Source: Paraburkholderia edwinii
GTDB lineage: Bacteria > Pseudomonadota > Gammaproteobacteria > Burkholderiales > Burkholderiaceae
Direction: 5' to 3'
DNA length: 64,000 bases
NCBI RefSeq assembly: GCF_019428685.1
Contig: NZ_CP080096.1
Coordinates: 1,364,001 to 1,428,000, forward strand
The notes beneath the pieces are model-generated. The model ran no database searches, was not told where the DNA came from, and was given only the letters and a program-made list of their open reading frames with translations. Positions 14,445-42,508 of this stretch are shown in pieces (within the stretch, counting starts at the first letter, position 1; each line of letters starts with the position of its first letter). Both the position numbers and the translations under genes were made by a program.

Positions 14445-15335
14445 CTAGCGCCGGTGATGCGCCTCCAGCAGCAGCTCGAGGAACATCTCGGCGCTGCGCG
14501 TGAGCGGCCGCGCTTCTTCGACGATCGCGCAAAAGGGCATCGGATAGGATGGCGAATCAGGCAGCACGTCGAATTCGTAGCGCGGCGAGAGCCGCGCCGC
14601 GTAGTGTTCGGGCAACAAACCCACCGATTGACCAGACGCGACCATCATCGCGATCGCTTCCAGACCGCTTGCCTCCATGCCTTGCCTGAATCCGTGATTC
14701 ACAAGGGCGTCTTCAACGAACGGATGCGGCCGGTACGCGAGCGGCAACGCACGCGTGTCGCCGCCTGCACGAATCTCGCCGACGGCGGCCGGACAATAGA
14801 ACACGCGATGCGTCTCCGTGAACAGCGGGTAATGGCGAAACGTACGCATTTGCCGGTACGCACCGCGAATTGCGATCTGCACACGCCGCTCGGCCAGTGC
14901 GGCACCAAGATCGCTGAAGGTCATCACCGACAACGACGGCCGCACGAGTGGCGCAACGCGCTGCAACTCGGCGAGCGCCTCGGGAATATGGCAATTCTCA
15001 TGAGTCAGCACGTGCTCGGAGGTGCCGAGCAGCAGCGGCCCCGATAGCACGCCGCGCACGGCATCGACTTCGGGCTTGATGCGCTCTAGCGATTCGAGGG
15101 CCTGCAACGCGACGCGCAGCGCGACCGTGCCGCTTTCCGTCAGCTGGAAGCCGCCTGGCCCGCGCTCGCATAGCTTGACGCCCAGGCGCGCTTCGACGTC
15201 GTTGATGTGTCGGCTGATCGACGCTTTCGACATAGCCAGCGCGCGTTCGGCCGCGCTGAATCCACTGGCCTGCGCGGCGGCGCAAAACACGCGAAGCGAG
15301 CGCAAGTCACGCTCGGTCAGGTCCATCTTCTTCAT
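14445..15335 (-). CDS. LysR-family transcriptional regulator
   Basis: A 296-residue LysR protein: helix-turn-helix at about 8-66 (SMSKASISRHINDVE-type recognition helix, with RALAMSKASISRHIND visible) and an effector domain to the C-terminus. It is divergent from the importer and ureohydrolase operon starting at 15458 with 122 bases between them, so it is probably that operon's regulator. The coinducer may be the imported guanidino compound or amino acid, which is an inference. Confidence 0.88.
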   Translation of the reverse strand: MKKMDLTERDLRSLRVFCAAAQASGFSAAERALAMSKASISRHINDVEARLGVKLCERGPGGFQLTESGTVALRVALQALESLERIKPEVDAVRGVLSGPLLLGTSEHVLTHENCHIPEALAELQRVAPLVRPSLSVMTFSDLGAALAERRVQIAIRGAYRQMRTFRHYPLFTETHRVFYCPAAVGEIRAGGDTRALPLAYRPHPFVEDALVNHGFRQGMEASGLEAIAMMVASGQSVGLLPEHYAARLSPRYEFDVLPDSPSYPMPFCAIVEEARPLTRSAEMFLELLLEAHHRR

Positions 15336-15388
15336 TGCGCAGGGACGCGAAAGGTTTTGGTTTTCGGAACCATAGCAGCGAAAAAATG

Positions 15389-15400
15389 GTTTTCCAAAAC
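15389..15400. promoter_or_regulatory. Candidate LysR-binding inverted repeat
   Basis: GTTTT-CC-AAAAC lies within an AT-rich stretch (15355-15410) between the divergent LysR and substrate-binding-protein genes. Confidence 0.35.
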
Positions 15401-15457
15401 ATTTTTGACTGCCTACATTGGGTTCACCAACGATCCGCCACGACCTCGGGGAACACC

Positions 15458-16306
15458 ATGCTCTCGCTCGACCGACGCAAATTTCTGACCGTAGCGGGCG
15501 GTGTGTCGCTCGCGCTCGTCTTGCCGTCTTTCGCCTTCGCCGAGGGTGGCACGCTCGACGATATCCGCAAGCGGGGCAAGTTGACCGTGGGCACGGAGGC
15601 TGCCTACGAACCTTTCGAGTTCGTCGAGAACGGCCAGGTGGTCGGCTATGGCCACGATATCCTCGAGTACATGGCGGGCAAGCTCGGCGTGTCGCTCAAT
15701 CAGGTCAACCTGCCGTTCCAGGGCTTGCTGCCGGGCCTGATGGCGCACAAGTTCGACTTTGTCGCGACGAGCGTCGGCATCAATGCGGAACGCGCGAGGC
15801 GCTTTGCCTTTTCGGAGCCGGTCGGTGTCGTGGATACCGTGCTTGTCGTGCGCTCGAACGACACGCACATCAACAAGGCCGACGATGTCGCAGGGCATGT
15901 GGTCGGCACGCAGATGGGCTCGTCGTCGCAGCCTGTCGCGCAGGCATTCGATACACAACTGAAAGCGAAGGGCGCGGGCTACGCGGATATGAAACTGTTT
16001 CAGGCCTATCCGGACGTGATGGTCGCGCTGTCGAATAAAACGCTCGATGTCGGCATCATGCCGTCGAATATTGTCGCGGTGATGATGAAGCGCGAGCCCG
16101 GCCAGTATCGCGTGATTGGCAAGATCGGCGAGCCAAAGATGCTCGCCTGGGTCGCGCATCCGCAGGACAAGGAAGTTCGCGCGTTTATCAATACGTCGCT
16201 GAACCAGCTCGAGCAGAATGGCCAGCTCGCGCAGATGCAGAAGAAGTGGTTCGGCTACACGATGAATCTGCCGACCAGCGGTTATCTGCCTGAAGGCGCG
16301 GTCTAA
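15458..16306 (+). CDS. Polar amino-acid-type ABC transporter substrate-binding protein
   Basis: A 282-residue periplasmic protein of SBP family 3 (the His/Gln/Arg-binding type). The N-terminus has a twin-arginine pattern DRRKFL followed by a hydrophobic stretch ending SFAFAEGG, so Tat export is possible. The mature start RKRGKLTVGTEAAYEPFEFVE is typical of the family (only its position, about 38-58, matters). It is the first gene of an operon with two matching permeases, a ureohydrolase and a RidA protein, which suggests it binds a cationic or guanidino amino acid. The start at 15458 is supported by the signal peptide. Confidence 0.9.
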   Translation: MLSLDRRKFLTVAGGVSLALVLPSFAFAEGGTLDDIRKRGKLTVGTEAAYEPFEFVENGQVVGYGHDILEYMAGKLGVSLNQVNLPFQGLLPGLMAHKFDFVATSVGINAERARRFAFSEPVGVVDTVLVVRSNDTHINKADDVAGHVVGTQMGSSSQPVAQAFDTQLKAKGAGYADMKLFQAYPDVMVALSNKTLDVGIMPSNIVAVMMKREPGQYRVIGKIGEPKMLAWVAHPQDKEVRAFINTSLNQLEQNGQLAQMQKKWFGYTMNLPTSGYLPEGAV

Positions 16307-16320
16307 AGCGGGTACGCAGC

Positions 16321-17004
16321 GTGTTCGGGATCAGTAAGGCACTCGCGGCGACGGTTGCGCCATTCGCTCGCGATTTCGCGCAAGGCGCGGCGACCACAGT
16401 GATAGCCAGCGTCGTCGCGTTCGCGATCGGCATCGCGATCGGCTCCTTGCTGCTGGTGCTAAGACAGCATGGCGGCCGGCTCTGCGCGGCATGCGTGGTC
16501 GTTTACGTGAGCGTGATTCGCGGCACGCCGGCGCTCATTCAGATGCTGATCGCCTACTACGTCCTGCCTGCGATGCTGAATATCTCGATCGCGCCGCTGA
16601 CAGCCGGCATTCTCGCGCTTGCCTTGAATACGGCGGCCTACGTGTCTGAAATCCTGCGCGGCGCACTCAACACGCTTGGACATGGCCAGGTGCCCGCAGC
16701 GCGCGCGCTCGGTATGAATGCGCTGCAGGTGTGGCGCTACATCGTGTTTCCACAGCTGTTCTATCGCTCGATTCCGCCGTTGACCAGCGAATTCACGATG
16801 CTGCTCAAAGCCTCTTCGCTGATGTCGATTATCGCGGTGCACGATCTTGCCACCGTCGCGCGCGACGCGACATTGCAAACGAACCTGCCGCTGCAGCTCT
16901 TTTCGCTGACGGCCGCGCTCTATTTCACCATCCTGTTCGTCGCGTCGTCGGCGTCGCGCCGGATCGAGCGGCACTTCGCGAGAGGTTTGCCTCATGGCTA
17001 TTGA
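16321..17004 (+). CDS. Amino-acid ABC transporter permease 1 (HisM/GlnP family)
   Basis: A 227-residue membrane protein with about five helices and the permease contact loop (EILRGALNTLGHGQVPAARALGM region, near residues 104-126) that docks to the ATPase. It starts with GTG at 16321, 14 bases after the binding-protein gene, and its end overlaps the next permease by 11 bases, so the two are translationally coupled. Confidence 0.88.
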   Translation: MFGISKALAATVAPFARDFAQGAATTVIASVVAFAIGIAIGSLLLVLRQHGGRLCAACVVVYVSVIRGTPALIQMLIAYYVLPAMLNISIAPLTAGILALALNTAAYVSEILRGALNTLGHGQVPAARALGMNALQVWRYIVFPQLFYRSIPPLTSEFTMLLKASSLMSIIAVHDLATVARDATLQTNLPLQLFSLTAALYFTILFVASSASRRIERHFARGLPHGY

Positions 17005-17656
17005 TCTTGCGGTCGCCGAATCGTGCGTGCCGCCGCTGCTCAAAGGGCTCGCGGTCACCGCGCAGGTCTGCGCGCTCGGCATTCCGCTCGGCATCGTGGC
17101 CGGCACGCTCGCCGCGTATTGCCGGTCGGCGCCGTGGGGCGCGCTGCGCGCGCTCGCGTTCGCCTACGTCGAGATGGTGCGCAACGTGCCGTTCCTGATT
17201 CTCGTCTACCTGGCCTTTTTCGGCTTGCCGAAGCTGGGCGTCATGCTGTCCGCGTTTGCGATTGGAGTCGCGGCGACCGCGTTCTACACGGGCGGCTACT
17301 TCTGCGAAATTCTGCGCGCGGCCTGGGCGAGCCTGCCGCGTGGGCAATGGCAGGCAGGTCTCTCGCTTGGACTCTCTGGCGTGCAGATCCAGCGCTATAT
17401 CGTGCTGCCGCAGATATTCGGATTCCTTGCACCCGCGACGACGAGCCTCACGATCATGATGTTCAAGGACTCGTCGGTGTTCTCCGTGATGAGCCTCGCG
17501 GAACTCACTTACCAGAGCAATCTGCTGACCGCGGACACCTTCGCCTATGTCGAAGTGCTCGGTACCACCGCGCTGATCTACTGGGGGTGCAGCGTGCTGC
17601 TCGACATCGCGGGCCAATGGTCCGAACGCTACGCGACACGCTATCGGCGCGTCTGA
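16994..17656 (+). CDS. Amino-acid ABC transporter permease 2 (HisQ/GlnP family)
   Basis: A 220-residue membrane protein paralogous to the preceding one, with the docking loop EILRAAWASLPRGQWQAG. It overlaps the upstream permease gene. No ATP-binding subunit is encoded in this operon: the next gene is a ureohydrolase. The pair must therefore borrow a GlnQ/HisP-type ATPase encoded elsewhere, or the gene has been lost. Confidence 0.88.
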   Translation: MAIDLAVAESCVPPLLKGLAVTAQVCALGIPLGIVAGTLAAYCRSAPWGALRALAFAYVEMVRNVPFLILVYLAFFGLPKLGVMLSAFAIGVAATAFYTGGYFCEILRAAWASLPRGQWQAGLSLGLSGVQIQRYIVLPQIFGFLAPATTSLTIMMFKDSSVFSVMSLAELTYQSNLLTADTFAYVEVLGTTALIYWGCSVLLDIAGQWSERYATRYRRV

Positions 17657-17716
17657 ACGCCGGTCGACATTCGAAGAATCCCCCTCCCGTTCCTTTTGAC
17701 ACGCTGGAGTTTCCCG

Positions 17717-18697
17717 ATGACACGACCACCACTTGTTGCGCCGCTTACCGTGCCGCCGAAGACCGGACACAAGACGCTGCTCTACTCCGAGCTCGCACTC
17801 GATCTCGACCATCTCGAAGCCGATATTGCCGTGCTCGGCATGCCGTATGGCGCCGCGTATTCGGCGGCCGATTTCACGAACGACCAGACCCGCGCACCGG
17901 CGGCGATTCGTGCGGCGACCGATCGTGTCGTGCGATCGCCGGGCCACTACGACTTCGATATCGACGGTCCGCTGCTGCAGGAGCGCGACGATATCCGCTT
18001 TGTCGACTGCGGTGACGTGATTGCCGACCTCGCGGCGCCCGGCAGCCACTATCAACGCGTCGAGGCCGCGGTGCGCAAGATTCTCGCGGCGGGCGCGCTG
18101 CCGATCGTGATGGGCGGCGACCACGGCATTACGACGCCGGTGCTGCGCGCATTCGATAGCCTCGCGCCGATCACACTCGTGCATGTCGACGCGCATCTCG
18201 ACTGGCGCGACGAAGTGAACGGCGTGCGCGATGGGCTGTCGAGCCCGATTCGCCGTGCCTCCGAGATGGCGCACGTCGATCGCATCGTGCAAATCGGACT
18301 GCGTGCGCAGGGCAGCGGCCGCCCCGAGGAATTGCGTGCGGCCCGTGCATACGGCTCGGAACTCGTGACCGCTTACGAGTTGCATGAAGTGGGGATGGAC
18401 GCCGTGCTCGCGCGAATTCCCGACGGCGGCAACTACTATCTGACGATCGACGCCGACGGTCTCGACCCGTCGGTGATGCCGGCCGTGGCGGGTCCCGCGC
18501 CCGGCGGCGTGACCTTCGTGCAGGCGCGCAAGCTGATTCACGGTCTCGTGAAGAAGGGGCGCGTGGTCGGCATGGATATCGTCGAAATTCAGCCGGAAAA
18601 AGACGTGAACCAGATTTCGTGCATCACCGCGGGCCGGCTGATTCTGAACCTGATCGGCAGCGCGATCCGTGCCGGCTATTTCGACAAAGGGCGTTGA
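17717..18697 (+). CDS. Ureohydrolase (agmatinase/guanidino-acid hydrolase family)
   Basis: A 326-residue binuclear manganese hydrolase that splits a guanidino compound into urea and an amine. All metal ligands are present: His136 (GGDHG), Asp158, His160 and Asp162 (VDAHLD), Asp245 and Asp247 (TIDADGLDP). Agmatine, guanidinobutyrate and guanidinopropionate hydrolases share these motifs, so substrate is not resolved. It lies behind an amino-acid-type importer and in front of a RidA gene, which supports import and hydrolysis of a guanidino acid as nitrogen source. The start at 17717 follows a CTGGAG site. Confidence 0.9.
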   Translation: MTRPPLVAPLTVPPKTGHKTLLYSELALDLDHLEADIAVLGMPYGAAYSAADFTNDQTRAPAAIRAATDRVVRSPGHYDFDIDGPLLQERDDIRFVDCGDVIADLAAPGSHYQRVEAAVRKILAAGALPIVMGGDHGITTPVLRAFDSLAPITLVHVDAHLDWRDEVNGVRDGLSSPIRRASEMAHVDRIVQIGLRAQGSGRPEELRAARAYGSELVTAYELHEVGMDAVLARIPDGGNYYLTIDADGLDPSVMPAVAGPAPGGVTFVQARKLIHGLVKKGRVVGMDIVEIQPEKDVNQISCITAGRLILNLIGSAIRAGYFDKGR

Positions 18698-18700
18698 CTC

Positions 18701-19108
18701 ATGGAACATATCCGCATCCGCCCGTTCAATACGCGCGACACGTATCCCGAGCAACGGCTCGACAATGACCTCGCTCAAGCGGTCGTGGCCGGCAAGATGG
18801 TTTTTCTGCGCGGCCAGATCGGGCAGGATCTCGATACGCGCCAATCGGTCGGTATCGGCGATGCGGCCGCACAGGCCGAGAAGGCGATGTCGAACGTCAA
18901 GATGCTGCTCGAGGAAGCCGGCAGCAAACTCGAGGATATCTGCAAGATTACGATCTATCTGACCGATGTTCGTTATCGCGAAGCCGTGTATCGCGTCGTC
19001 GGCCGCTGGCTCAAGGGCGTGCACGCGGTGTCGACGGGGCTGACCGTGACCGCGCTTGCGCGGCCCGAGTGGGTGGTCGAAATCGATGTGATCGCGGTCA
19101 AGCCTTAG
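18701..19108 (+). CDS. RidA-family (YjgF/YER057c/UK114) protein
   Basis: A 135-residue protein with the RidA core: FLRGQIGQDL near the N-terminus and the middle segment NVKMLLEEAGSKLEDICKI (about 66-84) followed by TIYLTD and a basic position, then RPEWVVEIDVIAV at the end. RidA deaminates reactive enamine/imine intermediates made by PLP enzymes and oxidases. It follows the ureohydrolase by three bases, so it is probably co-transcribed and clears reactive products of the imported compound's amine. The second half departs from canonical RidA, so the exact subfamily is unclear. Confidence 0.85.
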   Translation: MEHIRIRPFNTRDTYPEQRLDNDLAQAVVAGKMVFLRGQIGQDLDTRQSVGIGDAAAQAEKAMSNVKMLLEEAGSKLEDICKITIYLTDVRYREAVYRVVGRWLKGVHAVSTGLTVTALARPEWVVEIDVIAVKP

Positions 19109-19431
19109 GCAAGCGCTGCTTCATCGAATGCACGCCCGAATGCACTTCCTTCACGCACGCTCGAAGGGAACGCTGCACCAAATCATGGCTTGTCCGAATC
19201 ACGTTGGATCACGCGGGATGACGCGAGCGGCTCCGTTCGAGTCGCTCGCGTGCATGGTCGACGCCTGCTGATCGTTGCCCGGTGTGGCTTCACGCTGCCT
19301 TGCGCAAAGCCCGGCACGAAAGCTGCAATCTCCCTGTCTGAACTTGTATCCAAGATTGAACGCAAGATGCGCGCGATCGTCCACGCGGCCGTCCATGCCG
19401 CGGCCAACCACGACAGACAGGAATCCAGACC
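19109..19431. promoter_or_regulatory. Promoter region of the BMP-importer operon
   Basis: No credible gene is seen in these 323 bases. A frame at 19190-19435 has no family resemblance and ends on the operon start. A near-palindrome CTTG-TATC-CAAG at 19343-19354 could be an operator for the GntR regulator encoded at the operon's end. Confidence 0.35.
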
Positions 19432-20529
19432 ATGACCCATCGCCGCGACTTCATCAAACGGATCGGAGCGTTCGCGCTCGGCAGCGCACTGCCGTTCGAC
19501 GCGGCGTTCGCCGCCGGCAATCTGACCGTCGGCGTGATCTATGTCGGCGCGCGCGGCGACTATGGCTATAACCAGGCACAGGCGCAAGCCACTGCGGTAA
19601 TCAGGAAGCTGCCGAACGTCAAGGTAGTCGAAGAAGAAAACGTGCCTGAAACCGTGGCCGTTCAGAAGACGATGGAAGCGATGATCGAGCAGGACGGCGC
19701 GACGCTGATCTTCGCGACGTCGTTCGGTTACTTCGATCCGCATGTGCTGAAGATAGCCGCGAAATATCCGAAGGTGCGCTTCGCGCATTGCGGCGGGCTG
19801 TGGAAGAGCGGCGATCCGGCCAATATCACGAGCTATTTCGGCTACATCGACGAGTGCCAGTATCTGAACGGCGTGGTGGCCGGCCATGCGAGCAAGACGA
19901 AGAAGCTTGGTTTTGTCGCGGCCAAACCGATTCCACAGGTGCTGCGCAATATCAATGCGTTTACGCTCGGCGCGCAATCGGTCGATCCGTCGATCACGAC
20001 GCATGTGATCTTCACCGGTGACTGGTCGATGCCGATCAAGGAGGCCGAGGCCACCAATAGCCTCGTCGATCAGGGGTGCGATGTGATCACCTGCCATGTC
20101 GATGGCCCGAAGGTGGTGGTCGAAACGGCGGAGAAGCGCGGCGCGATGAGCTGCGGCTATCACGCAAGCCAGGCGCCGCTCGCGCCGAAAGGGTATCTGA
20201 CTGGCGCGGAATGGGACTGGGCGACGCCCTTCAGGACCATCGTCGCGTCCGCGCAAAACGGGCAGCCGCAACAGAATCTGATGCGCGGCGGCCTCAAGGA
20301 AGGCTTTGTGAAGATGTCGCCGTACGGCGCGAAGGTCGGCGCCGATGCGCGCGCGAACGCCGACTCGGTGAAGGCGAAGATGGTGGCCGGCGCTTACCCG
20401 ATCTTCAAGGGGCCGATCAAGGACAACAAAGGCGCGAGCGTGATCGCGGCGGGCGTCACGCATCCGCAAACCGATATCGCGCTCGAAAGCATGAACTATC
20501 TCGTCTCGGGTGTCGTGGGGCAGATCTGA
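19432..20529 (+). CDS. BMP-family ABC transporter substrate-binding protein
   Basis: A 365-residue periplasmic binding protein of the BMP/PnrA family (Bmp, Med, nucleoside and related binders). The N-terminus has a twin-arginine pattern HRRDFIKRIG then a hydrophobic stretch ending FDAAFAAG, and the mature protein starts NLTVGVIYVGARGDYGYNQAQ (about 29-49), the family hallmark. No lipobox cysteine is present, so it is soluble. It opens an operon with two permeases, a two-domain ATPase and several amidohydrolases. Purine nucleosides are the known ligands of characterised members, but the neighbouring enzymes suggest a urea-type or amide ligand here. Confidence 0.9.
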   Translation: MTHRRDFIKRIGAFALGSALPFDAAFAAGNLTVGVIYVGARGDYGYNQAQAQATAVIRKLPNVKVVEEENVPETVAVQKTMEAMIEQDGATLIFATSFGYFDPHVLKIAAKYPKVRFAHCGGLWKSGDPANITSYFGYIDECQYLNGVVAGHASKTKKLGFVAAKPIPQVLRNINAFTLGAQSVDPSITTHVIFTGDWSMPIKEAEATNSLVDQGCDVITCHVDGPKVVVETAEKRGAMSCGYHASQAPLAPKGYLTGAEWDWATPFRTIVASAQNGQPQQNLMRGGLKEGFVKMSPYGAKVGADARANADSVKAKMVAGAYPIFKGPIKDNKGASVIAAGVTHPQTDIALESMNYLVSGVVGQI

Positions 20530-20572
20530 TCGTCGCGGCCGTTGCATTCAACGTCCCACGCAAGGAGTGACG

Positions 20573-21715
20573 ATGCGTTCCGATGTTTCAACCAGTGTGA
20601 GCGCGCACGGCAGCGGCGCAAGGCTCATGCTCGGCATGCTGCCGGGTGTGCCGACGTTGTGCGCGGTTGGGTGCACGCTGCTGCTGTTTTCGCTGTTCCT
20701 GCTCGTGCAGGGGCAGCCGGCCGCGCAAGCGCTAGGGCTGATCGGCGAGGGCGCGTTCGGCTCGTGGTTCGCATGGCAGAACACGCTGCTGCGGGCCGCG
20801 CCGCTCATGCTCACTGCGCTGTGCGTGGCATTGCCGGCGCAGGTGGGGCTGATCGTGATCGGCGGCGAAGGCGCGCTGGCGCTTGGCGGCCTCGCGGCGG
20901 CAGTCGCCGCGCAGGCCGTGCCGCATGGGTTGCCGTGGTTCGTCGCGCTGCCCCTGGTGGCCGTGGCCGGCATGGCCGCCGGCGGGGTCTGGATCGGCGC
21001 GGTAGGCGCGCTGCGCCAGTGGCGGGGCGTCAACGAGACAATCAGCAGCCTTCTGATGTCGTACATCGCGATCGCGCTGTTCAAACAACTGGTCGAAGGA
21101 CCGCTGCGCGATCCGGCAAGCCTGAACAAGCCTTCGACGCCGCCGCTGCCCGATGCTCTCGCGATCGGCTCGATGCCCGGCCTCGATGTGCATTGGGGGC
21201 TGTTCTGGGGTGTGCTCGCGTGCATTGCGGCCTGGATCTTCGTGCGCCATAGCACGCACGGTTTCGCCATGCGCGTCGCCGGCGGCAACTTTCGCGCGGC
21301 GCGGCTCGTCGGCTTGCCCGTGAACCGGCTTGCGTTTGCTGCCTGTGTGATGGGTGGCGCGGCCGCGGGCCTCGCCGGGATGTTCGAGGTCGCGGCGGTG
21401 CAGGGCAGCGCAAACGCATCGCTGCTCGCGGGCTACGGCTACGCGGGTATTCTCGTCGCCTTTGCCGCACGGCAGAATCCGCTCGCGATCGTGCTGTGCG
21501 CCGTGCTCGTAGGCGGGATCGAAGCGAGCGGCAGTTTGCTGCAGCGCCGTCTCGGTCTGCCCGATGCGACCACGCTCTTTCTGCAAGGTCTGCTGTTCGC
21601 CAATCTGCTCGCCTGGGAGGCCTTCGGGGTGCGCCTCGCGGCGTGGCGCACGAAACTGCAAGCGGCCGCGCGTGCCGGCGAAGCGGGTGTGCAAATGGAG
21701 CGTACTCATGCCTGA
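20573..21715 (+). CDS. BMP-type ABC transporter permease 1
   Basis: A 380-residue membrane protein of the branched-chain/nucleoside permease superfamily (BPD_transp_2 type), with about nine hydrophobic helices and the IVIGGEGALALGGLAAAVAA motif region near residues 97-116. It pairs with the smaller permease that follows with an eight-base overlap. The start at 20573 has AAGGAG upstream. Together they form the membrane channel of the importer. Confidence 0.88.
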   Translation: MRSDVSTSVSAHGSGARLMLGMLPGVPTLCAVGCTLLLFSLFLLVQGQPAAQALGLIGEGAFGSWFAWQNTLLRAAPLMLTALCVALPAQVGLIVIGGEGALALGGLAAAVAAQAVPHGLPWFVALPLVAVAGMAAGGVWIGAVGALRQWRGVNETISSLLMSYIAIALFKQLVEGPLRDPASLNKPSTPPLPDALAIGSMPGLDVHWGLFWGVLACIAAWIFVRHSTHGFAMRVAGGNFRAARLVGLPVNRLAFAACVMGGAAAGLAGMFEVAAVQGSANASLLAGYGYAGILVAFAARQNPLAIVLCAVLVGGIEASGSLLQRRLGLPDATTLFLQGLLFANLLAWEAFGVRLAAWRTKLQAAARAGEAGVQMERTHA

Positions 21716-22634
21716 TCCGCATTCGACCTTTGCCGTGCTCGCCCTGTCGCTTATTGCGGGCGCGATCCGCGTCAGCACGCCGTATCTGTTCGTCAGTCTC
21801 GGCGAATGCCTGACCGAGAAGGGCGGCCGTGTGAATCTCGGTCTGGAAGGCATTCTGGTATCGGGTGCGATGACCGGTTACGCCGCGTCGTTTCTGTCCG
21901 GTTCGCCGTGGGCCGGCGTGCTCGCCGCCGGCGGCGCGGGGCTGTTGCTCGGCTGCCTGCACGGCCTCGTCTGTTCCTTGCCGCGCGTGTCGGATATCGC
22001 TTTCGGCATCGCATTGATGCTGATCGGAACCGGCCTTGCGTTCTATCTCGGCAAGCCCTTTATCGAGCCGCAGGCACCGATGCTCGCGTCGCTGCATCTC
22101 GGCGACGCGTTCGCATCGCCTCAGGTGCGCGAGGCCTTGCACGTGAATCCGCTGTTTGCGATCGGCGTCGTGCTCGCCTTCGCCTTGCAATGGGGCTTGC
22201 GCCATACGCGCTGGGGCGTGGTGCTGCGCCTCGTCGGCGAAAACGCGGAGAGCGCGCGTGCGATGGGCTATCCGATTACGCGCGTGCGCGTTGCGGCGAC
22301 CGCGGTCGGCGGCATGTTCGCGGGCGTCGGCGGTGCGTATCTGTCGCTCGTCTATCCGGGCAGCTGGAACGAAGGTCTGTCGAGCGGGCAGGGATTGATG
22401 GCGGTGGCCCTCGTGATTTTTGCGCGCTGGAGACCGCTGGCGTGCCTGTGGGCCGCGCTGCTGTTCGGCGCTGCGGGCGCGCTCGGGCCCGCGCTGCAGG
22501 CGGTCGGTGTGACGAGCGGCTACTACCTCTTCAATGCCGCGCCTTATCTGCTGACGCTCGTCATCATGATCGTCAATTGCAGGCCCGATCGCACGCTCGC
22601 CGGCGCGCCGGGCGAACTGAGCCTGACGCGATAG
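21708..22634 (+). CDS. BMP-type ABC transporter permease 2
   Basis: A 308-residue membrane protein, second permease of the importer, with the family motif [17 protein letters not shown] (about 41-57) and a long helical core. The gene overlaps the upstream permease and is followed by the cysteine hydrolase gene before the ATPase gene, which shows that the hydrolase was inserted inside the transporter set. Confidence 0.88.
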
Positions 22635-22687
22635 CGCGCCAATGCGTTGCGCGCCGATTGCCATACCACCCGCAAGAGAGTTCGACC

Positions 22688-23380
22688 ATGACACGTTTCA
22701 TCGAAGCCCGTCCCTATCCGTGGCCTTACGACGGCGCGCTGCGCGCCGATAACACCGCGCTCGTGATCATCGACATGCAGACGGATTTTTGCGGCATCGG
22801 CGGCTATGTCGACAAGATGGGCTACGACCTGTCGCTCACGCGCGCGCCGATCGCGCCGATCAGGTCTGTGCTTCGGCTGATGCGCGAACTCGGCTTCACG
22901 ATCATCCACACGCGCGAAGGGCATCGCCCCGATCTGTCGGACCTGCCCGCGAACAAGCGCTGGCGCAGCCGCCGGGCGGGCACGAACGGCATCGGTATCG
23001 GCGACGATGGGCCATGCGGACGCATTCTCGTGCGCGGCGAACCCGGCTGGGAAATCATCGACGAACTTGCGCCGCTGCCGGGCGAAATTGTCATCGACAA
23101 GCCCGGCAAGGGCTCCTTCTGCGCGACCGATCTCGAACTGATTCTGCGCACGCGCGGCATTGCGAATCTTGTGCTGACCGGCATTACGACCGACGTTTGC
23201 GTGCATACGACGATGCGCGAGGCGAACGATCGCGGCTTCGAATGCATGGTGCTCGCCGATTGTTGCGGCGCGACCGATGCGGGCAATCACGACGCGGCGC
23301 TGAACATGATCCTGATGCAGGGCGGTGTGTTCGGCACGGTCTCGGATTCATCGGCGTTGCTTGCGGCGCTCGGGAGCTGA
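22688..23380 (+). CDS. Isochorismatase-family cysteine hydrolase, probable biuret amidohydrolase
   Basis: A 230-residue hydrolase with the family triad Asp29 (VIIDMQTDF), Lys138 (IDKPGKG) and Cys171 ([15 protein letters not shown]). The N-terminus ([17 protein letters not shown]), the [11 protein letters not shown] segment and the region around the triad closely match my recollection of the characterised Rhizobium biuret hydrolase BiuH, with Asp, Lys and Cys at the equivalent positions. BiuH splits biuret into allophanate and ammonia. I did not run an alignment, so the identity is an inference. It sits between the second permease and the ATPase gene of a BMP-type importer, so import and hydrolysis of the same compound is likely. 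No allophanate hydrolase is encoded in the window. Confidence 0.7.
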
Positions 23381-23382
23381 TC

Positions 23383-24990
23383 ATGTCGACGGCTGCGCGC
23401 GCACTCGGTATCGAAGTGCTGAACGCGACGAAGCGGTTCGGCGCCTTCCGCGCGCTCGACGGCGTATCGCTGAAGGTGCGGCCCGGCACGATCCACGCGC
23501 TGCTTGGCGAGAACGGCGCGGGCAAGAGCACGCTCGTCAAGGGACTGGTCGGTTATGGCGTGCTCGACGACGGCGAGATTCTCGCGGACGACCGTCAGGT
23601 GCACATTGCGTCGCCGCGCGACGCGCGGGCGCTCGGTATCGGCATGGTGTATCAGCATTTCACGCTTGCCGCGGGGCTATCGGTCGAGGAGAATCTGCTG
23701 CTTGCGCGTGGGCGCGTGCCGTGGCGCATCGACTGGGCCGCGGAGCGCGCGGCGCTCCAGACGTTTCTGCGCGGCATGCCGTTCCGTTTGCGGCTCGACG
23801 CGTCCGTTGCAGGGCTCGCGGCTGGCGAAAAGCAGAAGCTCGAAATATTGAAGCAGCTCTATCTGCGCCAGCGCTTCCTGATTCTCGACGAACCGACTTC
23901 CGTGCTGACGCCGCAGGAGGCCGACGAGGTGCTCGGTCTGATGCGCGAACTGACCGCACGCGGCGAATTGACTGTGCTGATGATCACGCACAAGTTTCGC
24001 GAAGTGGATGCCTATGCGAACGACGTGACGGTGCTGCGCAAGGGACGCTGGGTCGGCACGAGCGCGGTGCGCGATACCGATCGCGACCGGCTGGCCGCGT
24101 GGATGATGGGCGAGGAGCGCGCGGGCGATCCGCGCGCGGCTGCGGAGCTGAATGCGCGTCGGCTGCCGCGCCGCGCCGTGGCGGCGGACGCGCCGCTCCA
24201 GCTCGAACTGCGTGAGCTGAGCGTGGGCGACGATCGCGGCCATCGCGCGGTGCGCGAGGTGTCGATTGCGGTACGCGCGGGCGAGATTCTCGGCATTGCG
24301 GGCGTGTCGGGCAACGGCCAGAAGGAACTGATCGAGGCGCTCGTCGGGCAGCGCCGCGCTGAAGCAGGCGATATGCGCGTAAAAGGTGAGCCATATCGCG
24401 CCACGCGCGAAGCGATGACGCGCCTGCGTGTGTTCGCGCTGCCGGAAGAGCCGTTGCGCAATGCGTGCGTGGCGGGCATGAGCGTCGCCGAGAATCTCGC
24501 GTTGCGCGAGTTCGACCGGGCGCCGTTCAAGCGCGCCGGCTGGCGGCTCGACCGCCGCGCGCTGCGGGCGCGTGCGCAGAAACTGATCGCCGAATTCAAT
24601 GTGCGGCCGCCGGCGCCCGAGCGCGCAATCGGCACCTTGTCGGGCGGTAACGTGCAACGCGCAGTGCTCGCGCGCGAGTTCGGCCAGCCGGTCGACGTGC
24701 TGATCGTGGCGAACCCGGTTTTCGGCCTCGATTTCGCATCGGTCGCCGATATTCACGCGCGCATTCTGACCGCGCGCGATGCGGGGGCGGCGGTATTGCT
24801 CGTCAGCGAAGATCTCGACGAACTGCTCGAGCTCGCGGACCGCATCGCGGTGATGGCCGATGGCCGTATCGTGTTCGAAACGGCCGCGGAACAGGCCGAC
24901 AGGGTGTTGCTCGGCCGTCATATGGCGGGGCACGTCGACGCGAGCGAACAACACAGGAAAGTGACGGCTCCCGTGCATGCGGGTATCTGA
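23383..24990 (+). CDS. BMP-type ABC transporter ATP-binding protein (two ABC domains)
   Basis: A 535-residue protein with two fused ATPase domains like sugar and nucleoside importers. Domain 1: Walker A GENGAGKST, signature AAGEKQKLEIL and Walker B LILDEPTSVLT. Domain 2 (from about 260): Walker A degenerate (GVSGNGQKE), signature LSGGNVQRAVLAREF, Walker B LIVANPVFGLD. The degenerate second site is normal for this subfamily. The gene starts two bases after the cysteine hydrolase stop, so they are coupled. Confidence 0.9.
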   Translation: MSTAARALGIEVLNATKRFGAFRALDGVSLKVRPGTIHALLGENGAGKSTLVKGLVGYGVLDDGEILADDRQVHIASPRDARALGIGMVYQHFTLAAGLSVEENLLLARGRVPWRIDWAAERAALQTFLRGMPFRLRLDASVAGLAAGEKQKLEILKQLYLRQRFLILDEPTSVLTPQEADEVLGLMRELTARGELTVLMITHKFREVDAYANDVTVLRKGRWVGTSAVRDTDRDRLAAWMMGEERAGDPRAAAELNARRLPRRAVAADAPLQLELRELSVGDDRGHRAVREVSIAVRAGEILGIAGVSGNGQKELIEALVGQRRAEAGDMRVKGEPYRATREAMTRLRVFALPEEPLRNACVAGMSVAENLALREFDRAPFKRAGWRLDRRALRARAQKLIAEFNVRPPAPERAIGTLSGGNVQRAVLAREFGQPVDVLIVANPVFGLDFASVADIHARILTARDAGAAVLLVSEDLDELLELADRIAVMADGRIVFETAAEQADRVLLGRHMAGHVDASEQHRKVTAPVHAGI

Positions 24991-25009
24991 CAAAGGAGAG
25001 AGGACAGCA

Positions 25010-26020
25010 ATGAGTTCAAGCGGATTGGGCGGATTGAACAGGTCACCGAATGGAATTGTGGTTGGCCTCGTGCAGTTGCAGAACCCCGATGTCGAGACGC
25101 CGGCGCAACTCGCGGCGCAAACGCAGCGGATTGTCGAACTGGTGGGCAAGGCACGGCGCAACAACCCGGCGATGGATCTCGTGGTGTTTCCCGAATACGC
25201 GCTGCACGGGCTGTCGATGCGCACCGACGACGCGATCATGTGCAGCCTCGACGGCCCTGAAGTGGCGGCATTCAAGGCTGCCTGTATCGAGCATCGCATC
25301 TGGGGCTGCTTTTCGATCATGGAGCGCAATCCGGGCGGGAATCCGTATAACAGCGGTATCGTGATCGATAGCGAGGGTGCCGTGCAGCTCTACTATCGAA
25401 AGCTGCATCCATGGGTGCCCGTCGAGCCCTGGGAACCCGGCGATCTCGGCGTGCCGGTCTGCAAGGGGCCGAACGGCGCGATGCTGTCGCTGATCATTTG
25501 CCACGATGGGATGTTTCCCGAAATGGCGCGCGAAGCCGCATACAAAGGCGCGGAAATCATCCTGCGCACGGCTGGCTACACGGCGCCGATCCGTCATGCA
25601 TGGCGCGTGACGAACCAGGCCAATGCATTCCAGAATCTCGCGCAGACGGCGAGCGTGTGTTTGTGCGGCAGCGACGGCACCTTCGATTCGATGGGCGAAG
25701 GCATGTTCTGCGATTTCGACGGCACCGTGATGGTCGACGGCAGCCACCGTCCCGACGAGATCATCACCTGCGAAATGCGGCCCGATCTTATACGCGAGGC
25801 ACGCGTTCACTGGGGCGTGGAAAACAACATCTATCAGCTCGGCCATCGCGGCTACGTTGCGGTGAAGGGCGGGGCGCGCGATTGTCCCTATACGTTCATG
25901 CAGGATCTCGTGCGCGGCGAATACCGGTTACCGTGGGAGCAGGACGTGCGCGTCACGGACGGCACGTCGTGCGGTTTTCCGGCGCCCGAGCGGCATTACC
26001 GCAACGGATCGCGAGGCTGA
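25010..26020 (+). CDS. amiF: Formamidase
   Basis: A 336-residue nitrilase-superfamily amidase whose N-terminus (SGLGGLNRSPNGIVVGLVQLQ region) and C-terminus (VTDGTSCGFPAPERHY) match AmiF formamidases closely. The catalytic triad is visible: Glu62 (VVFPEYALHG), Lys131 (YYRKLHPW) and Cys164 (IICHDGMFPEMARE). AmiF hydrolyses formamide to formate and ammonia. A strong AAAGGAGAG site precedes the ATG at 25010. It is part of the importer operon, 19 bases after the ATPase gene, so it is co-expressed with the cysteine hydrolases. Formamide could be the end product of the pathway, or AmiF may act on a related short amide. Confidence 0.9.
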   Translation: MSSSGLGGLNRSPNGIVVGLVQLQNPDVETPAQLAAQTQRIVELVGKARRNNPAMDLVVFPEYALHGLSMRTDDAIMCSLDGPEVAAFKAACIEHRIWGCFSIMERNPGGNPYNSGIVIDSEGAVQLYYRKLHPWVPVEPWEPGDLGVPVCKGPNGAMLSLIICHDGMFPEMAREAAYKGAEIILRTAGYTAPIRHAWRVTNQANAFQNLAQTASVCLCGSDGTFDSMGEGMFCDFDGTVMVDGSHRPDEIITCEMRPDLIREARVHWGVENNIYQLGHRGYVAVKGGARDCPYTFMQDLVRGEYRLPWEQDVRVTDGTSCGFPAPERHYRNGSRG

Positions 26021-26023
26021 GCG

Positions 26024-26683
26024 ATGCAAACCGTGAGCGGCGCGCAACCGTTTCCATTTCATTTCGATTCGCGCCACACCGCGCTGGTTGTGATCGACAT
26101 GCAGCGCGACTTTATCGAGCCGGGCGGTTTCGGCGAGGCGCTCGGCAACGACGTGTCGCTGCTCGCCGCGATTGTGCCGACGGTCGCGGTGTTGCTCGAG
26201 CATGCGCGTGCAGAGGGCTGGCTCGTCGTGCACACGCGCGAGTCGCACGCGGCGGATTTGTCCGATTGTCCGCCGGCCAAGCGTGCGCGCGGCAAACCGC
26301 TTGCCCGCATCGGAGATCAGGGGCCGATGGGCCGCATCCTCGTGCGTGGAGAGCCGGGCAACGCGATCGTCGATGCGCTCGCGCCGGCCGCCGGCGAGAT
26401 CGTGATCGACAAGCCGGGTAAAGGCGCGTTTTACGCGACACGTCTGGCGGAGGAACTGGCGCTGCGTTCGATCACACACCTGATCTTCGCCGGTGTGACG
26501 ACCGAAGTCTGCGTGCAGACGACGATGCGCGAAGCGAACGACCGCGGCTACGAATGCCTGCTGATCGAAGATGCGACGGCGAGCTACATTCCGGCGTTCA
26601 GGGACGCGACGCTTGCGATGGTGCGTTCGCAGGGAGCGATCGTCGGCTGGACAGCGACGTTGGCGAGCTTGATGGAGGCATGA
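26024..26683 (+). CDS. Second isochorismatase-family cysteine hydrolase
   Basis: A 219-residue paralogue of the hydrolase at 22688, with triad Asp25 (VVIDMQRDF), Lys130 (IDKPGKG) and Cys163 ([20 protein letters not shown]). It keeps the same PGKG and MREANDRG blocks but has a different N-terminus ([15 protein letters not shown]) and lacks the aromatic PYPWPY block. A triuret hydrolase of this fold (TrtA) is reported to act upstream of biuret hydrolase; given the neighbouring BiuH-like gene, TrtA-type activity is one possibility, inferred from context only. A ureide or N-carbamoyl amide is equally open. It starts four bases after the formamidase stop. Confidence 0.75.
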
Positions 26684-26685
26684 GG

Positions 26686-27096
26686 ATGGCGGTTTCGATG
26701 AGCGAGTTAAATCGTCCGGACGTGGTTGCGCAGGTTACGGCGGCGTTCGATGCCTATGAGCGTGCATTGGTCGACAACGATATCGCGACCATGAACGCGT
26801 TGTTCTGGAGTACGCCTCAAACCGTGCGCTACGGCATTGCCGAGGTGCAGCACGGCGGCGAAGCGATCCAGCGCTGGCGGGAGACATGTGAGCCCGTGCC
26901 GCGCTCCCGACGCCTTCATCGCACGGTCGTGACAACGTACGGCAACGATCACGCGACGGTGAGCACGGAATTCACCAGCGACGCGACGCCGCTGCTCGGG
27001 CGGCAGATGCAGACATGGGTGCGGTTCGACACGGGCGGCGCGTTCGGCGGCTGGACCATCGTCGCCGCCCATGTCAGCCTGATCGATGTGCATTGA
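26686..27096 (+). CDS. AtzH/HpxZ-like protein (DUF3225, SnoaL-like fold)
   Basis: A 136-residue protein with a cystatin/SnoaL-type pattern: N-terminal helix RPDVVAQVTAAFDAYERALV (about 9-28), a strand-rich middle and the closing WTIVAAHVSLID. It resembles AtzH, the stabilising subunit associated with the 1-carboxybiuret hydrolase AtzE, and HpxZ of oxalurate catabolism. It overlaps the second hydrolase gene in the sense that the previous stop codon is at 26681-26683; ATG at 26686 is chosen because GGAGG lies seven bases before it, although an ATG at 26680 (ATGA overlap) also exists. The usual AtzE or AtzG partners are not in the window. Confidence 0.7.
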   Translation: MAVSMSELNRPDVVAQVTAAFDAYERALVDNDIATMNALFWSTPQTVRYGIAEVQHGGEAIQRWRETCEPVPRSRRLHRTVVTTYGNDHATVSTEFTSDATPLLGRQMQTWVRFDTGGAFGGWTIVAAHVSLIDVH

Positions 27097-27114
27097 CGCG
27101 ATGCGGTCCGGCTT

Positions 27115-27882
27115 ATGAATGGCTGTGCGCACATGGCTGAGGTAACCGGCTTTCCTATGCTTGCCGATGATGGGCAGTGCGCGACGGAGAAGGCCGCGTC
27201 CCGTGCGAATCCACTCGCTGAGGAGGTCTATCAGCGGCTCAAGCACGACGTCTTCAGTTTCAGGCTCTTTCCCGGCGACCGTTTCTCGGAGAACGATATC
27301 GCGCAATACTATGGCGTGTCGCGCACACCGATGCGTGATGCGCTGTTCCGTCTCGCTCGCGAAGGCTACCTCGAAGTGGGATTCCGGCGCGGATGGAAAG
27401 TGGCCGCGGTCGATTTCGACCGGCTCGATCAGCTTTACGACCTGCGTATCGTGCTCGAAGCCGCCTCGCTCGAGCGGCTGGCGATGAATGCGGCGGCCCA
27501 TCCGGTGCTTGGCGAACTCGAACGGATTTGGTGCGTTGCCGAACCGGAGCGCAATAGCGATGCAGTCGATATGTTCAGGATGGACGAGCAATTTCACCGC
27601 GGGCTTGTCAGCGCCGCGGGCAATCTCGAGATGCTGCGCGTCCATGACGAAGTAACCGAGCGCATCCGCATCGTGCGGCGCCTGGATTTTTTGAAGCCGC
27701 ACCGCACCGCCGCCACGTATGACGAGCATGCGGCGATTCTTCACCTGATCGAGCGCGGCAAACAGACCGAGGCACGCATCATGCTGAGTGCGCATATCAC
27801 TCAAAGCAAGCTCGAAGTGCGCAAGATCACGTTGTCCATGCTGATTTCGGCGCGAGACAGCAAGTTGCCGTTCGTTACGTAG
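27115..27882 (+). CDS. GntR-family regulator, FCD subclass
   Basis: A 255-residue regulator: winged helix at about 25-95 (FRLFPGDRFSENDIAQYYGVSRTPMRDALFRLA, shown by position only) and an FCD effector domain (about 100-230) with the metal-binding histidines of that fold visible around DEQFHRGL and DEHAAILHL. It follows the AtzH-like gene by 18 bases on the same strand, so it is likely the local repressor of the importer operon. Two starts exist, ATG 27115 and ATG 27133. Confidence 0.88.
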   Translation: MNGCAHMAEVTGFPMLADDGQCATEKAASRANPLAEEVYQRLKHDVFSFRLFPGDRFSENDIAQYYGVSRTPMRDALFRLAREGYLEVGFRRGWKVAAVDFDRLDQLYDLRIVLEAASLERLAMNAAAHPVLGELERIWCVAEPERNSDAVDMFRMDEQFHRGLVSAAGNLEMLRVHDEVTERIRIVRRLDFLKPHRTAATYDEHAAILHLIERGKQTEARIMLSAHITQSKLEVRKITLSMLISARDSKLPFVT

Positions 27883-41848: not shown

Positions 41849-42508
41849 TCACGCTGAACGCGAGGAAGAAAGCGGGGAAGAAAGCGGCGAAGGCAGCGCA
41901 GCGAGCAGCTCAGCCGTCGTGAGAATTTCATGCGCGAAGGTCGGGCCGTTCAGTTCGTGCGCGGCGTGCATCATGTCGTGCGTGAACGCAGCGGTGGCAT
42001 CGCGTACGAGCGTAACGTGGTAACCGAGCTCCATCGCGAAGCGGCTCGTCGATTCGATGCAGGTATTCGCGAGCAGGCCGACCGCGATCACATGCGTCAC
42101 GCCTTGTTGCTTGAGCTGGAAATCGAGGTCGGTATTCGCAAAGCCGCTTTGCGCCCAATGCTCGTGAATGATGATGTCGCCTTGGTGCGGCACGAAATCC
42201 GGATGCCATTCACCGCCCCACGTGCCTTTCTCGAACGTGTGACGCTTCTGGATGAGCCGCTGCGTCGGGTTCGGATGATCCCAGTTCTCGTAGTCGCCCG
42301 GTTGCCAGCGACGATGCGGCACATAGAACACCTGAATGTCCGCCTTGCGCGCGGCAGCGACGATGGCGCGCAGGTTATCGAGCAGCCCAACTTCTTTGGC
42401 AATCGACTCGATCATCGGAAATATCTTGCCGCCATGCGACAGGAAGTCGTTATACGGATCCACCAGCAGCAGACCGGTGCGCTCCGCGCGATACACAGTG
42501 CCAGCCAT
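41849..42508 (-). CDS. Third isochorismatase-family hydrolase, lysine-less subfamily
   Basis: A 219-residue protein with the family core: Asp17 in LLLVDPYND and Cys150 in LLANTCIESTSRFAMELGYH region. At the usual lysine position it reads IIIHEHWAQSGF, with Glu116 instead of lysine. From family knowledge the lysine completes the catalytic triad, so it may use a different mechanism or be inactive as an amidase. It is divergent from an HxlR regulator and upstream of the aldehyde dehydrogenase, which suggests a redox- or aldehyde-related role. Confidence 0.75.
   Translation of the reverse strand: MAGTVYRAERTGLLLVDPYNDFLSHGGKIFPMIESIAKEVGLLDNLRAIVAAARKADIQVFYVPHRRWQPGDYENWDHPNPTQRLIQKRHTFEKGTWGGEWHPDFVPHQGDIIIHEHWAQSGFANTDLDFQLKQQGVTHVIAVGLLANTCIESTSRFAMELGYHVTLVRDATAAFTHDMMHAAHELNGPTFAHEILTTAELLAALPSPLSSPLSSSRSA

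Follow-up and report, generated by a model that had tools for sequence, protein, structure and literature searches.

A formamidase-bearing operon of Paraburkholderia edwinii that very probably scavenges nitrogen from triuret and biuret

Nine closely spaced genes, all on the forward strand, occupy positions 19432-27882 of a 64,000-nucleotide stretch of Paraburkholderia edwinii DNA (contig NZ_CP080096.1, positions 1,364,001 to 1,428,000; hereafter the window), which lies on contig C2 of an 8.3-Mb genome assembled in two contigs. The open reading frames run in the order BMP binding protein, permease 1, permease 2, BiuH, ATPase, AmiF, TrtA, AtzH-like protein and GntR regulator. A preliminary description, made from the letters of the DNA, had seen here the genes of a BMP-type importer mixed with those of four catabolic proteins (two isochorismatase-family hydrolases, an AmiF formamidase and an AtzH-like protein), followed by a GntR regulator, the first hydrolase gene separating the second permease gene from that of the ATPase; the frames lie where it placed them and give the expected family matches. 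The features, including a possible site for an alternative sigma factor, are these:

19312..19326, + strand: weak sigma-54-like site CGGCACGAAAGCTGC, 120 bases 5' of the first gene, with 8 of 10 consensus letters
19432..20529, + strand: BMP/PnrA-family substrate-binding protein, AtzT-like (PF02608; AtzT structure 6pi5, E 8e-58)
20573..21715, + strand: ATP-binding cassette (ABC) permease 1 (PF02653, BPD_transp_2; ATG at 20573)
21708..22634, + strand: ABC permease 2 (PF02653, BPD_transp_2; probable ATG at 21708, a few bases inside permease 1)
22688..23380, + strand: predicted biuret hydrolase BiuH (PF00857; NF050097, 409.1 bits, cut-off 370; 75.2% identity to 6azo)
23383..24990, + strand: importer ABC ATPase with two nucleotide-binding domains (two ABC_tran stretches)
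25010..26020, + strand: AmiF-family formamidase of a biuret-operon subfamily (NF009803, 557.6 bits, cut-off 406)
26024..26683, + strand: predicted triuret hydrolase TrtA (PF00857; 6xix/6xj4, E 1e-93; 71.0% identity)
26686..27096, + strand: AtzH-like (DUF3225/HpxZ) protein, a putative TrtB-type carboxybiuret decarboxylase (PF11533, 162.7 bits; NF033625, 150.5 bits, cut-off 135; 2owp, Bxe_B1374, E 8e-63)
27115..27882, + strand: GntR-FCD regulator, the cluster's last gene (PF00392 and PF07729)

The two hydrolases carry the interpretation. Judged by alignment, the product of 22688-23380 is the biuret hydrolase BiuH, as the preliminary description had proposed: it exceeds the curated biuret hydrolase cut-off, aligns with Rhizobium leguminosarum BiuH (6azo) at the identity given above, and has the same residue at 11 of the 11 BiuH positions compared (D36, F41, Y47, Y53, K142, K145, D173, C175, T200, Q215 and V218, T200 being the position aligned here to TrtA Y187), its triad in its own numbering being D29/K138/C171. 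The second hydrolase, 26024-26683, can be named more precisely than it was there, and by the same kind of comparison it is the triuret hydrolase TrtA. It falls under the BiuH cut-off (257.3 bits against the 370 of NF050097), and its best PDB match is 6xix/6xj4, the Herbaspirillum TrtA (PMC7948467); it is 71.0% identical to TrtA (6xix) versus 47.9% to BiuH (6azo). All 13 TrtA residues compared (D24, K129, C162, F29, F35, N41, E72, K132, A134, E160, Y187, Q202 and I205) are identical; in its own numbering the triad is D25/K130/C163, and F36, N42, A135, E161, Y188 and I206 match TrtA and not BiuH. Six positions distinguish TrtA from BiuH (PMC7948467, with residue roles also from PMC5806882), and at these the second hydrolase has the TrtA letter in six of six (F35, N41, A134, E160, Y187, I205) and the first the BiuH letter in six of six (Y47, Y53, the Ser after GKG, D173, T200, V218), the glutamine common to the two families being present in both. 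RutB, nicotinamidase and N-carbamoylsarcosine amidase were rejected as identities for either protein, their scores being far lower. A third isochorismatase-family gene of the window (41951-42478, minus strand, 114 bits) is not part of the operon.

Very probably, the operon scavenges nitrogen from triuret and biuret; the biuret or triuret route offered in the preliminary description is sustained by the grouping of both hydrolases with the biuret and triuret families. The BMP importer would take up triuret and biuret. TrtA, like its characterised relative, would take one terminal ammonia off triuret to give carboxybiuret, whose decarboxylation to biuret, also spontaneous, the AtzH-like protein would accelerate. 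BiuH, again by the activity shown for a relative, would then yield allophanate and ammonia, and allophanate would be cleaved by the allophanate hydrolase of the other contig, whose gene belongs to a guanidine-riboswitch operon; alternatively, it would decay to urea, a substrate of the genome's urease. AmiF, an optional member, would convert formamide to ammonia and formate, most simply formamide entering alongside, and local regulation probably falls to the GntR protein.

The core of this system is already known: a pathway from triuret through carboxybiuret, biuret and allophanate to ammonia, and its linkage to a BMP importer (PMC7948467, PMC12625717). TrtA converts triuret to carboxybiuret and ammonia, the half-life of carboxybiuret, as it loses CO2 to become biuret, is about 20 min, and the steps of BiuH and AtzF follow (PMC7948467); in ammonia-oxidising bacteria trtA, biuH, trtB, atzF and bmpA-nupABC are found together, with gntR listed among the genes in the synteny figure (PMC12625717). 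The preliminary description did not recognise the combination as described, which is wrong for the core because the TrtA-BiuH-AtzF pathway and the BMP/trtB linkage are published; for the formamidase part the statement stands, within the literature searched. Like the TrtA-TrtB-BiuH-AtzF systems of Herbaspirillum sp. BH-1 and R. leguminosarum 3841 (PMC7948467), the window has two hydrolases with the diagnostic residues, and its importer is of the same type as that of the ammonia oxidisers (PMC12625717); it differs from those systems in that AtzF lies outside the operon and AmiF is an insertion separating the ATPase gene from that of TrtA. Two Herbaspirillum relatives (L075, L109) have the BMP-to-GntR gene order of the window minus AmiF. 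Shared with the atzDGEHF/atzRSTUVW genes of Pseudomonas sp. ADP (PMC6219798, PMC6834077) are the AtzH family and the AtzT-like binding protein; in contrast to that strain, the genome has no AtzE above the cut-off and has the BiuH route in place of AtzEG. As for cyanuric acid as an entry substrate, the genome gave no AtzD match, a silence equally seen in 14 control genomes, which leaves the absence not established.

Conservation of the locus points the same way. Among the best 80 TrtA loci of named genomes, taken from the matches listed, the full chain BMP-permease 1-permease 2-BiuH-ATPase-TrtA is present in 58; by our own reading, 16 of the others run off the end of the fetched stretch and six have TrtA without the chain. 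The top three named relatives of the TrtA gene among those matches are Paraburkholderia. Within the genus, a TrtA of 79% identity or more was found in 20 of 58 genomes drawn, and the operon is present, with a GntR match after it, at 19 of the 19 such loci other than the window's own. Because the chain is complete in 58 of 80 loci and in 19 of 19 within the genus, the gene association is not chance, and the linkage of transporter to hydrolases, on which the preliminary description had staked its reading together with the family placement of both enzymes, is conserved.

The final enzyme would come from elsewhere in the genome. No allophanate hydrolase above the cut-off lies in the window, as had been noted, and a profile search of the genome found its only one, AtzF (748.9 bits), on contig C1. 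The surrounding operon (L153, G000:C1:3320588-3334417) contains a 1208-residue carboxylase, an additional ABC importer and two more related frames, together with a Guanidine-I riboswitch (75.4 bits); to judge by the riboswitch, it is presumably a guanidine carboxylase operon. Of the 19 same-genus relatives, 16 have AtzF directly 5' of the BMP gene; the three without it there are L149, L150 and the window's closest relative, L134, and the window too lacks AtzF at that site. Since the genome also encodes a urease (alpha subunit, 986.6 bits), urea from decayed allophanate could be used as well. Triuret catabolism here would thus probably rely on the allophanate hydrolase of a guanidine-controlled operon.

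Some observations weigh against a triuret and biuret operon. It lacks AtzF, and because the only copy above the cut-off stands under a guanidine riboswitch, it is uncertain whether cells living on triuret alone would be supplied with that enzyme. Meanwhile, TrtA occurs without BiuH and this importer in six of the 80 loci (L077, L093, L098, L110, L115, L120), from which it follows that TrtA can function in other settings; some of the six adjoin other BMP-type importers or AtzE-AtzH pairs. The best ligand of AtzT, the importer's nearest solved relative, is guanine (PMC6834077), a point taken up with the importer below.

The AtzH-like protein is probably a carboxybiuret decarboxylase of TrtB type, an assignment drawn from the way in which Arg66 tracks AtzE. 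The locus set yields 71 AtzH-like proteins, counting that of the window and a few from loci without the full operon; among them, Arg66 is found in 23 of 23 from loci with an AtzE match and in none of 48 from loci without one, a match being defined by 50% identity or more to the protein of L101, which itself scores 698.8 bits as AtzE (cut-off 425.75). Fisher's test gives 4e-19, although the sequences are related and the value is no real probability. Residue 66 therefore separates the two groups in 71 of 71 loci, a testable point, and we would read the split as one between a dicarboxyurea type and a carboxybiuret type, since carboxybiuret has one carboxylate fewer than dicarboxyurea. Four Variovorax-type proteins (Leu66, no AtzE) nest within the Arg66/AtzE clade with mixed node support; at least two changes look separate. 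In the Herbaspirillum locus L109, the AtzH-like gene is the sole TrtB candidate seen in the cluster.

It is distinctly unlikely that 26686-27096 is instead a true AtzH acting on 1,3-dicarboxyurea. AtzH of Pseudomonas ADP is thought to act on dicarboxyurea made by AtzE, with Y22 and R46 important for activity (PMC6219798), and the window protein retains both, along with R63, R73, Q106 and Q108; R66 is replaced by C and R96 by S, so that the arginine pocket (R46, R63, R66, R73, R96) is incomplete, three of its members being retained. R66 and R96 variants are absent from the five reported there as impaired (PMC6219798), which favours a true AtzH and, for R66, counts against our reading of Arg66. 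However, dicarboxyurea requires AtzE, and the genome search proposed in the preliminary description found none above the cut-off (best 363.8 bits against 425.75); R66 is moreover absent from all 48 proteins whose loci have no AtzE match and present in the 23 whose loci have one.

AmiF sets this operon apart from the published ones described above. It is optional, being present in 25 of the 58 complete loci (24 times between permease 2 and BiuH, once between ATPase and TrtA) and in seven of the 20 operons of the genus, always between ATPase and TrtA. Asked from the AmiF side, the linkage is strong. AmiF was sought in 58 genomes of the genus, 399 of the order and 398 of the phylum at E-value limits of 1e-80, 1e-90 and 1e-70, which should admit enzymes like 2dyu and 5g3o (335 and 382 bits), although the 45% identical type (that of the Klebsiella enzyme below) may fall at the edge of the order draw. 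The genus draw has it in seven genomes, all seven inside the operon; the order draw in 17, with 16 inside (the exception is G342); and the phylum draw in 15, with nine inside, five beside and one exception (G547). Those five lie 0.4-5.4 kb 5' of a BMP-permease-permease cluster, BiuH being seen in four and the stretch of G724 ending before it; in G488, frames on the opposite strand separate AmiF from the BMP cluster, so the two are not one transcript. Four genomes are common to the order and phylum draws and G000 to all three, and the 34 distinct AmiF genomes comprise 27 with the gene inside the operon, five beside it and two elsewhere. AmiF is a recurrent partner of the operon, its subfamily being found nearly always in or beside biuret/triuret operons in the sampled Proteobacteria, which is again testable.

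Other records loosen that linkage. Of 493 matching records in a plasmid collection, 368 fall short of 60% identity, these mostly from Klebsiella, and in the one such record examined (L206) the formamidase adjoins urtABCDE. A P. aromaticivorans plasmid has an 89% identical AmiF within a cluster of amidase genes, and G176 retains AmiF without TrtA in the operon, no TrtA being found in that genome at 1e-75. The G176 locus (L195, 5299-14156) carries AtzF, BiuH, AmiF, an AtzH-like gene and GntR, with no TrtA between AmiF and the AtzH-like gene. No description of a link between AmiF and a biuret/triuret operon was found in the literature searched, which mostly does not cover subscription journals, so that one may be in print; nothing pairing "biuret hydrolase" with "formamidase" was found there, and the excerpts pairing "allophanate hydrolase" with "formamidase" do not describe the operon. 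The closest parallels are fmdA (PMC13209695) and the Klebsiella gene, each beside a urtABCDE urea transporter and likewise joining a formamidase to an importer for a urea-type compound; that importer is unrelated to the window's, and the Klebsiella enzyme is 45% identical to AmiF here and of the canonical loop type.

The window's AmiF retains the catalytic E60, K133 and C166 as well as W137, E141, D168 and Y192. Its catalytic residues are identical to those of 2dyu and 5g3o, which we take to be the enzymes of Helicobacter pylori and Bacillus cereus, respectively; fmdA, presumably, is a member of another enzyme family. In an alignment of 68 subfamily AmiFs (three from outside the operon) with four canonical sequences, the same residues are invariant in the subfamily except for E141 (67 of 68), and R197 is present in all 68. 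The loop RTAGYTAPIR, found in all or nearly all subfamily members, stands where the four canonical enzymes have RISGYSTQV, and 45 positions (three of them gaps) are fixed differently in at least 95% of the 68, as set against only four canonical sequences. The proline and basic residue of the loop resemble aliphatic amidase (GYMYPAK), so the altered loop does not by itself imply a different substrate. In the AmiF tree, built from the 68 and the four canonical sequences, the Paraburkholderia copies form one clade with those of pBN4 and G176 (support 1.0) within other betaproteobacterial operon AmiFs; in the operon tree, the Paraburkholderia operons, mostly without AmiF, stand beside AmiF-less operons of Cupriavidus and Herbaspirillum, with P. 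luteola and Enterobacter plasmid operons that have AmiF at the usual site also adjacent and support low at some nodes. Taken together, the two trees suggest that AmiF probably re-entered the Paraburkholderia operon at a new site; movement of an ancestral copy within the operon is the alternative.

The simplest role for AmiF would be to hydrolyse formamide taken up under nitrogen shortage, a use suggested for the formamidase beside urtABCDE (PMC13209695). AmiF may serve formamide or a formyl-urea, the bolder second role coming to mind because formylurea was the second-best of the substrates tested with TrtA. One can envision, as a joint proposal rather unlikely to hold as a whole, that the AmiF subfamily completes a route for formyl-ureas (formylurea or formylbiuret), with the operon scavenging fragments of oxidised purines and triazines and Arg66 marking a switch of AtzH between dicarboxyurea and carboxybiuret. 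If so, triuret and biuret would go via TrtA, TrtB and BiuH, and formyl-ureas via BiuH or TrtA and AmiF. That a formylated urea of this kind, such as could arise from oxidised purines or from triazines after ring opening, is the operon's main substrate is unlikely. BiuH or TrtA would deaminate it to formylcarbamate, which would lose CO2 to leave formamide, a product that the preliminary description had thought possible and that is still conjectural here, or AmiF would deformylate it directly; the tight linkage of a distinct AmiF subfamily, and its probable re-entry at a new site in this genus, would suit such a route. Yet the formylurea activity of TrtA is small, 0.3% of that on triuret (PMC7948467, Table 2), with TrtA and BiuH tuned to triuret and biuret, and 13 of the 20 same-genus operons lack AmiF. 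The 89% identical enzyme in an ordinary amide/amidase plasmid cluster fits plain formamide, and formylurea was found in the searched literature only in PMC7948467.

The importer bears on a further alternative raised in the preliminary description, in which purines are its cargo and the enzymes' substrate is a ureide derived from purines. This is highly improbable, with little in its favour other than a relative, AtzT, that binds guanine and the name HpxZ ("oxalurate catabolism protein") that NCBIfam gives to the AtzH-like protein. AtzT (6pi5), the nearest solved relative of the 19432 protein, binds guanine best, with a K_D of 0.11 uM (PMC6834077), and four of seven AtzT ligand residues are retained, namely the aromatic sandwich Y45/W194 together with S97 and F98; the other three are changed (E165 to Q, N218 to H, N220 to D), the binding protein being related to AtzT but probably of different specificity. 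Family searches match no operon gene to a purine-ring enzyme, and the active-site residues of BiuH and TrtA are those for biuret and triuret. The "B6 transporter" names offered by NCBIfam for the importer were set aside, all four proteins being under the cut-off (50-423 bits against 400-670).

Nitrogen control of the operon is plausible. Scored against the sigma-54 consensus TGGCAC-N5-TTGC, 12 of 80 upstream regions contain a perfect site; the window's own match at -120 is weak, its 8 of 10 letters being reached in 5.5% of 200 shuffles, and the same site is present in the close relative L134. A 10-mer search upstream of 30 operons revealed no shared operator (the commonest 10-mer occurs in 10 of 30), and no Rfam riboswitch match reached the gathering score in the window.

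Preceding the operon, at 14445-19108, is a block of genes for a LysR regulator, a polar amino acid-type binding protein, two permeases, an agmatinase-family enzyme (156.2 bits, slightly under the cut-off of 174.3) and a RidA-family protein; the block also precedes the operon in L134, at the place where 16 of 19 relatives have AtzF. A gene resembling 5-formyltetrahydrofolate cyclo-ligase lies near TrtA in L111, L067, L090 and L122, and the one such neighbour scored is a weak family match (22.5 of 84.9 bits). On a plasmid of Rhizobium sp. SU303 (L197, 5784-14348), the operon also has atzD (cyanuric acid hydrolase) and, 3' of TrtA, a cupin gene, another candidate for the carboxybiuret enzyme TrtB; no AtzH-like gene is listed there, in a gene table that is incomplete. 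Plasmid pENT-784 of Enterobacter cloacae from a sink drain (L198, 4037-13660) carries a complete AtzF-BMP-permease-permease-AmiF-BiuH-ATPase-TrtA-GntR operon flanked by transposase genes, and AmiF and TrtA matches with equal scores recur on other Enterobacteriaceae plasmids.

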